From Chondrosia reniformis (Eukaryota; Porifera; Demospongiae; Chondrillida; Chondrillidae): a stretch of 64,000 bases of DNA. A program made the translations under genes and the position numbers. The notes beneath the pieces were generated by a model. That model ran no database searches. It was not told the DNA's origin and saw only the letters and a program-made list of their open reading frames with translations. The DNA is taken from NCBI GenBank assembly GCA_947172415.1, contig OX359196.1, positions 932,501 through 996,500 of the forward strand. The letters run 5' to 3'. This document shows positions 46,301-51,878 of the stretch, one piece after another. How positions within the stretch are numbered: position 1 is the stretch's first letter; each line of letters opens with the position of its first letter.

Positions 46301-49300
46301 AATCACCCAGCTCTCTTAATTGCCCAATCACCAGCCCTCTCCATTGACCAATCACCCAGCCCTCTCCATTGACCAATCCAACCATCCATTACATTTGCTA
46401 ATCCATCCATTCCAACCCAAAATACTTAGGCAGTTACATCTTAACCAGTTCATCCGCACTTCTGGAGTGGTGTCCAGTGCTACCGGGATACTTCCTCAGT
46501 TGAATATGATCAAGTACGACTGCGTTAAGTGTGGGTTCCTGCTTGGCCCATTCTACCAGCGGCAGGAACAGGAAGTGAAGCCATCAACATGTCCCGAGTG
46601 TCAATCTAATGGACCCTTTGACATCAACATGGAAGAGGTTAGTCGAGATGTCTAGCGGGTTGAGTGTGTAAGATGTGGTTTTACCACTTTCTGTACATAA
46701 TAAAATACTTTATGAGTTAGCTCTAAAGGACAGCAAATAATGGCAGATTATACATACAGGTATATACATATGTAGGATGAAAATATTAACGTACAGAGAG
46801 AATATTATTAGCAGGAAATACTATTCAAAAACATTGTAGAGAATTTTAATATTTTAGACAGTACAGAGACCAGTCTTCTGCTGAGAAAAGTTACGTGTTA
46901 GTCTTTTAGGGGTTTTCCCTTATTTTTAGACTGTTTATCGTAACTACCAGAGGATCACTATTCAAGAGAGCCCGGGCCGAGTAGCAGCTGGCCGTCTTCC
47001 TAGATCTAAGGACGCAATACTATTGGCTGATCTGGTGGATGTGTGTAAACCAGGTGATGATATCGTAAGTGTGCATGTAGACCTCCATGTGATGATATTG
47101 TAAGTGTCCATGTAGACCTCCATGTGATGATATTGTAAGTGTCCATGTAGACCTCCATGTGATGATATTGTAAGTGTAAGTGTGCATGTAGACCTCCATG
47201 TGATGATATCGTAAGTGTCCATGTAGACCTCCATGTGATGATATCGTAAGTGTCCATGTAGACCTCCATGTGATGATATCGTAAGTGTCCATGTAGACCT
47301 CCATGTGATGATATCGTAAGTGTCCATGTAGACCTCCATGTGATGATATCGTAAGTGTCCATGTAGACCTCCATGTGATGATATCGTAAGTGTCCATGTA
47401 GACCTCCATGTGATGATATCGTTAGTGTGGATGTAGACCTCCATGTGATGATATCATAAGTGTCCATGTAGACCTCTATGTGATGATATCGTTAGTGTGG
47501 ATGTAGACCTCCATGTTTAACCTTAAAAATCATTTGCACGTCTACCAAGTTCTCTCCATGCTTACCTAGCTCTCTGCTTATAGGAAGTAATTGTTATGTG
47601 CTCTCATCAAATTAGTCACATTCTTCCCTCCCCCAGGAACTGACAGGCGTCTATCTGAATAATTATGACGGTTCCCTACACAGTGCCAACGGCTTCCCTA
47701 TCTTTGCAACTGTCATCAAGGCCAACTACATCACAAAGAGGGATGACAAGGCGGCAGTGTCTAATCTGACTGATGAAGATATTAGAACCATTCACCAACT
47801 CTCCAAAGAGGAGAACATTGCCGAACGAGTGAGTTTCTCCGATGAAGTGTTATCAAATGTTCTGTGCTTGTGTATGTGACTGTTTGAGAAGTGCGGCCTG
47901 GTAGCCTTAAGTGGTGATGGTTTATATCTGTCCAGGTATAGCCCTATTGGATACTGTGCCCCTTAACCAGAACTGGTTGGCATTTATCTACACCTTAATG
48001 TATGTACATGCATGGGCACTTTAATGCTAATAATAATGATGATAATAATATATACATATATGTATAGGAGTTTTAAACTTCCCAATACCTCCACTCAATA
48101 TTGCAACATTTGCTTACATTTCTTTAACTACGTAAACTTAATAAATCCCCAAAATTGTAATTTGACTTTCACTAAATTGATTTGAATGGTTCTGTAGATA
48201 TTTGCCTCAGTTGCTCCTTCCATATTTGGTCATGAGGACATCAAGAGAGCTATAGCTTTGACACTCTTCGGAGGCGAACCAAAGGACCCAGGAGGCAAGC
48301 ACAAGATAAGGGGAGACATTAATGTACTCCTCTGTGGTGACCCGGGAACTGCCAAGTCACAGTTCTTAAAATACTTGGAAAAGATAGCACCGCGACCAGT
48401 GTTCACTACAGGTATGCTGGAATTGTACATTGCCATCACGACATATAGAGATCTTATTTGGACTCTAATGTTACTGACTCCTACGGAAGCATTCTTATAG
48501 GTTTATTTAGTATTTAAATTTGTAAATAAAAGGTGTTTAATAGAATAAGGATTTCTTCTCCCTGTGTTGAACTTATCTTTTGAAAGGATCATCTTTCGAC
48601 TTTTAAAGTGTCTAAAGACACAGTTTTGTTGACTCTTCTTGCAGACATTGAGAATAGTGTTAGTTTAATTTGCTGCTGAAGACCTATGTTAAATCCAGAG
48701 GTATTATTGAGTAACAGCAACATAAATTATTGATAGTAGAATGTTTCAACCCGTAGGTCTTCATCAGCAAAACCTTCTATTATCAATAATTTATGTTGCT
48801 GTTGCACAATAATACATCTGGATTTTGTCATGATCGCAGCAAACAATCCTTATCACTTCATAAGTATGTATGTGTGACTGTCTTGGCTTAATAAGGAATG
48901 CTCTGTATCTTATGGTCGCAGGTCAAGGTGCTTCTGCGGTGGGTCTGACTGCCTACGTCCAGCGTAGCCCCATCACCAAAGAATGGACCCTGGAGGCGGG
49001 CGCACTGGTCTTAGCGGACAAGGGTGTCTGCCTTATCGATGAGTTTGACAAGGTTAGCGCTACTAGGCCATTCAACCTAAACTGCTTACTAAGTTTACAA
49101 GTTGTAACGCCATAAATATGCACGTGCATCATCACCCTTAGATCAATACATGCAGCTCAAAGGGACTGGCTTAGTTACATGTTAGATGAATGATCACTGC
49201 ATGTTAGATGAATGATCCCTGCATGTTAGATGAATGATCACTGCATGTTAGATGAACGATCACTGCATGTTAGATGAATGATCACTGCATGTTAGATGAA

Positions 49301-51878: not shown

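Follow-up and report, generated by a model that had tools for sequence, protein, structure and literature searches.

A 22-bp minisatellite straddling a 3′ splice junction in an MCM2 gene of the sponge Chondrosia reniformis

In an MCM2 gene of the demosponge Chondrosia reniformis, one intron ends in a tandem array that repeats the 3′ splice site of that same intron. The locus raises two questions: how one acceptor can be singled out from a row of its own copies, and whether such an array comes from a process that acts on splice junctions or is an ordinary minisatellite that happens to lie across one. We analysed a window of 64,000 nucleotides (contig 8 of the assembly, OX359196.1, positions 932501–996500), to which positions refer unless another locus is named, and searched the genome as a whole (117,379,552 bases in 15 contigs).

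The gene and the exon junction

The gene model (Table 1) covers the C-terminal part of MCM2, and its first position, 45175, is the start of the model rather than a mapped exon start. Joined, its 14 exons encode 727 residues. The best match in the PDB is 8q6o_A (1238 bits, query residues 1–726), recorded as DNA replication licensing factor mcm2 and presumably the Xenopus protein. Pfam MCM domains were found in eight of the nine exon frames tried, including the frame that opens at 49626, and the remaining frame (47616–47879) had no Pfam match. Reading frame and protein alignment together place the start of the exon at 49626; the alignment to 8q6o_A passes through this junction free of gaps. A first-pass annotation of the window had described the acceptor of this intron (intron 8 of our model) as devoid of a pyrimidine tract; its pyrimidine fraction, 0.44, is indeed the lowest among the 13 introns modelled. 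The assembly has a QV of 69.8, as given in the part of its report available to us (PMC12181767), and an assembly artefact at the 459-bp array is therefore unlikely.

Table 1 Features of the MCM2 locus (window positions)
Feature	Position	Strand	Basis
MCM2 gene model, 14 exons, C-terminal 727 aa	45175–51878	+	Frame and protein alignment
25-bp minisatellite in upstream intron, not straddling; edges approximate	44757–45096	+	TRF
25/75-bp minisatellite, most of intron 3 (46130–46429), borders untouched	46148–46410	+	TRF, gene model
35-bp minisatellite straddling 5′ splice junction (exon ...GTGATGATATC/GTAAGT), 13.2 copies	47050–47516	+	TRF, gene model
MCM2 intron 5 (this model), 572 nt; first donor (47065) taken as true one	47065–47636	+	Frame and protein
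MCM2 intron 8 (this model), 573 nt, donor AAG/GTTAGC	49053–49625	+	Gene model
22-bp minisatellite straddling 3′ splice junction, 20.9 copies	49178–49636	+	TRF, register cut
Monomer units, older and more varied, ATGAATGATC variants among them	49178–49295	+	Register cut
Five identical 66-bp trimers A-B-C (330 bp, last 15 units)	49296–49625	+	Sequence comparison
B unit adjoining acceptor unit, AA instead of AG	49582–49603	+	Sequence
Predicted true acceptor AG	49624–49625	+	Frame and protein
MCM2 exon; first 11 bases (49626–49636) inside array	49626–49790	+	Frame, Pfam, protein

Anatomy of the acceptor array

Divided in exon register, the array repeats the unit ATGAACGATCACTGCATGTTAG, and the following unit begins with the 11 bases, ATGAACGATCA, that open the MCM2 exon. 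The first-pass description of a 22-bp minisatellite built from a 3′ splice site is borne out, as the unit includes the acceptor and 11 exon bases. Its further statement that the array abuts the exon is right as to the contact and too modest as to its extent, since the two overlap by 11 bp.

Units far from the exon are varied, whereas the 15 nearest to it form uniform trimers, with one distinct sequence among the five, which points to a late amplification at the exon side; a later amplification had already been read from the 66-bp period. The identity of the trimers suggests recent turnover, as seen in a single haplotype. Within each trimer, unit A ends in TTAG, unit B ends in TTAA, and unit C carries ATGAAATATC and ends in TTAG; the exon then opens as the next A unit and follows it for 11 bases.

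The number of putative decoys is smaller than first thought. About 20 decoy acceptors had been proposed; 15 of the upstream units end in TTAG and the other five, including the unit at −22, end in TTAA. One additional TTAG is found at 49174, just beyond the edge of the array. Because the adjoining B unit has no AG, the nearest upstream AG lies 44 nt from the true acceptor. This AG-free stretch was considered as a special feature and rejected, the corresponding stretches of the other 12 MCM2 introns spanning 20 to 127 nt, which makes it ordinary. That the unit at −22 has lost its AG is nevertheless a hint, and one that tells against the reading preferred below, of a possible past cost of AGs upstream. 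The TTAG-ending units also contain GTTAG, resembling the intron 8 donor, GTTAGC, and a single array unit might in principle serve simultaneously as a donor and as an acceptor.

Choice of the acceptor

Upstream of the true site there are 16 TTAGs, and joining the exon end at 49052 to whichever of them brings translation to a stop after 4, 9 or 15 codons; for all 15 decoys within the array the stop comes after 9 or 15 codons. A working MCM2 mRNA therefore requires the last site, and the earlier claim that the true acceptor is the last of the row holds if MCM2 is made. On the strength of the frame, we infer that splicing takes place at this last acceptor.

Four of the decoys, at 49361, 49427, 49493 and 49559, are identical to the true site over 81, 147, 213 and 279 upstream nucleotides, respectively, and over 11 downstream nucleotides in each case, so that local signals cannot explain the choice between them. 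We deduce that a discriminating feature must lie beyond base 11 of the exon or far upstream, or else be positional. Masking of the decoys by RNA structure was examined as a candidate and rejected: the fold of 49494–49660 has a z-score of −0.60, and 52 of 200 shuffled sequences fold at least as well.

Other duplications in this gene and genome

The donor array in intron 5 had been placed three introns upstream of the acceptor array, which agrees with our model (intron 5 versus intron 8). Its flanks, CCAGGT and CCATGT, are alike at five of six positions. Farther along the window, a long 169/338-bp satellite runs from 52565 to the window end at 64000.

Duplications across splice junctions recur in this genome. 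In an MCM6 gene (L056:2001–2152; locus C10:1189400–1191600), a 76-bp two-copy duplication comprises a whole intron of 71 nt and five exon bases. The two introns are identical at 65 of 71 positions, and frame and protein, the latter matching MCM6 in the PDB, are kept only when the outermost donor is used with the outermost acceptor. At a locus chosen through a donor-motif search (L022; C1:1513800–1516857, minus strand), a 26-bp unit made of 20 exon and 6 intron bases spans a predicted donor; a homologue in support of the predicted exon was not found. Five short MCM loci fetched by homology contain six arrays of at least two copies, two of which, that in L056 and the first in L055, were inspected closely. 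The array in L055 (positions 37–113) has 21-bp units with TGTAG and ends about 11 nt before the acceptor of an MCM exon, which it does not overlap.

Origin of the array

Two paralogues, L053 and L054, which we take to be MCM3-like and MCM5-like, respectively, likewise carry a phase 0 intron at the DEFDK/ site. The shared position makes the junction of MCM2 intron 8 probably older than the array. Two other loci, L056 and L057, read through the DEFDK position with the intron missing, so that a great age of the junction is something that we infer; in L055 the DEFDK motif was not found.

Eight intron bases, CATGTTAG, are retained at the left edge of the array, as are the 11 exon bases at its right edge. 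The remaining three bases of the unit, CTG, are present in neither flank, as if they had been inserted during the first duplication or the flank had been altered since. We found no flanking microhomology at the acceptor array, unlike the donor-type arrays of MCM2 and L022 (the latter with a short flank match, CTACT), where the matches fit a microhomology-mediated duplication.

We consider it very probable that the MCM2 array is a minisatellite of the kind called mirages in amphioxus, and that such arrays are small tandem duplications of an ordinary sort, in a genome rich in minisatellites, and are tolerated for as long as the exon-flanking sites stay in use. A small tandem duplication would by chance have spanned the intron–exon border, taking in eight intron bases and 11 exon bases along with the three bases CTG. 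Slippage or unequal exchange may then have amplified it to about 21 units, and subsequently as a 66-bp trimer on the exon side. Acceptor choice would be set by exon sequence beyond base 11 or by the position beside the exon, that is, by exon definition. The array would be tolerated because the outermost, authentic acceptor, next to the unduplicated remainder of the exon, still yields the original mRNA.

Chance placement and its alternatives

From the presence of two splice-site arrays in one gene, the first-pass annotation had argued for a shared mechanism. Such a junction-specific process, by slippage at exon borders or through templates derived from spliced RNA, would preferentially make arrays of this type. 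It could appeal to the two MCM2 arrays, one for each kind of splice site, and to the two-copy case in MCM6; we nevertheless hold it to be improbable, to a considerable degree. In a chance model, duplication seeds fall uniformly within an intron or over either border; the probability of straddling is then 0.558, 0.391 and 0.268 for the three arrays in modelled introns and about 0.163 for the fourth, which lies in an intron with approximate edges. Chance alone thus predicts 1.38 straddlers among the four arrays of this MCM2 region, as against two observed (P of two or more = 0.43, or 0.36 when the calculation is confined to the three fully modelled introns), a fit that concerns four arrays only, and the claim of a shared mechanism is left unsupported.

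The first-pass annotation had held that a genome-wide excess of minisatellites matching the adjacent exon end would show a general process. Triplets of splice motifs exceed their reversed pattern in one of three whole-genome counts. With both strands summed, and counting hits rather than arrays, GTAAGT triplets number 773 compared with 1051 for the reversed pattern, and TTTYAGR triplets 390 compared with 453; MAGGTRAG triplets number 552 compared with 279. This excess, about twofold, favours a junction-specific process and counts weakly against the chance reading, but of the 100 MAGGTRAG matches listed, a dispersed 23-bp family accounts for 37 and a single array for another 30. GTAAGT triplets proved unspecific for donor-derived arrays, an example being L007. 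The dispersed 23-bp tandem family, AAGGTGAGATGAAGAGGACTCTT, lies on C1 at seven places among the matches listed (5825078 to 9937648), and the searches also brought up a 25-bp family, TTTTAGACTTTTGTGTAATGTATCA, scattered across several chromosomes.

A scan for straddling arrays used a coding score trained on only 25 sequences. It took 67 arrays of at least 2.5 copies, a threshold at which two-copy cases such as that in MCM6 are missed: 40 from a random sample of 160 kb (16 of 160 drawn regions), 13 from the window and 14 from other loci. Seven arrays passed the score threshold of the scan, and three of these were judged convincing, namely the two MCM2 arrays and L022; none of the 40 arrays from the random 160 kb was among them, which argues against a junction-specific process. 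The other four were dropped: L037 (78 bp, random sample) and L007 were by eye in-frame coding repeats, the latter on the other strand; the window array at 46148 has the exon start outside it; and the window array at 38945 was without support. The random sample also contains big 13-bp satellite arrays of up to 387 copies (L042, L048 and L050). Finally, the short flank matches at the two donor arrays suit ordinary duplication.

A role for the decoys themselves would be a different explanation, in which a copy-number-variable set of unproductive acceptors determines the productive share of MCM2 pre-mRNA. The premature stops predicted for the 15 array decoys and for the TTAG at 49174 would suit it, as would the four decoys whose local sequence is the same as at the true site and the pyrimidine tract of that site, the poorest of 13. 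Nonetheless, the trimer block has the identical copies of a recent amplification and was found by similarity search at this locus only, and the amphioxus Adh and TnC mirages are reported to be free of aberrant mRNA, in the portion of that report available to us (PMC3902484); we regard such a role as highly improbable. A rheostat built on it, in which each unit would add a chance of unproductive splicing, array length would set the dose of MCM2, and the change of AG to AA that recurs once per trimer would have been kept as relief of the cost, appears to us equally doubtful. By far the hardest to believe is that an ordinary intronic minisatellite resembles the exon by chance, or that a dispersed repeat landed beside it. 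Tandem repeats, counting the 13-bp satellites, do occupy 16% of the random 160-kb sample. However, the 11 exon bases lie exactly in the register of the array and encode a conserved motif, and the intron position common to two paralogues means that the exon sequence most likely came first. A dispersed mobile unit was rejected, as all six matches of an exact pattern search and all seven of a similarity search for the unit and trimer, both of which may skip some repeats, are the array itself.

Comparison with known systems

The reading as a mirage, which we prefer, rests on a class described in amphioxus. In the part of one study available to us (PMC3087553), mirages are minisatellite-like duplications of intron–exon boundaries, at 5′ and 3′ borders, in globin genes and Adh3; instability, both of length and somatic, is described for them, and splicing appears to be regular. 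Their units measure 10–72 bp in Adh3 and up to about 160 bp in the globins, and the Adh3 mirages, the source of the name, are there credited to Canestro et al. 2002. Besides its findings on Adh and TnC, the second report (PMC3902484), in the same available portion, describes imperfect mirages in PGBD5. As in these descriptions, the MCM2 repeat unit spans a real exon–intron boundary and the AG or GT signals are repeated, and the units of 22 bp and 35 bp fall within the reported size range. Unlike the mirages so described, the MCM2 case occurs in a sponge and has a trimer higher-order repeat.

The minisatellite of human IFI6 (6-16/G1P3) offers several splice donors (Turri et al. 1995), and alternative mRNAs reportedly use two of its downstream repeat units as donor sites. 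The donor array of MCM2 likewise supplies repeated splice sites, whereas the array at intron 8 is of the acceptor type, and use of its inner sites would lead to premature stops. In potato RdRp, an intron was gained by tandem genomic duplication, according to the available part of the source (PMC4974935). The MCM2 array resembles that case in being a tandem duplication that copies splice signals, and differs from it in that the intron would not be new, its position being common to L053 and L054 and its age inferred from them. Introner elements are near-identical copies dispersed at many loci; the MCM2 unit, by contrast, was found by similarity search at one locus only. The literature searched contained no minisatellites at exon–intron boundaries of sponges, a weak negative with most subscription journals outside its coverage. 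As far as these searches show, mirages, a known class in lancelets, are present here in a new phylum.

Meaning for splice-site choice and for mirages

For 3′ splice-site choice, the MCM2 locus amounts to a natural experiment of unusual clarity. Five acceptors are identical over 81 bases or more upstream and over 11 bases on the exon side, only the last of them can yield the protein, and use of an inner acceptor would be flagged by a premature stop. The acceptor array, the donor array and the MCM6 duplication together suggest that mirages are a by-product of minisatellite-rich genomes and not a peculiarity of lancelets.
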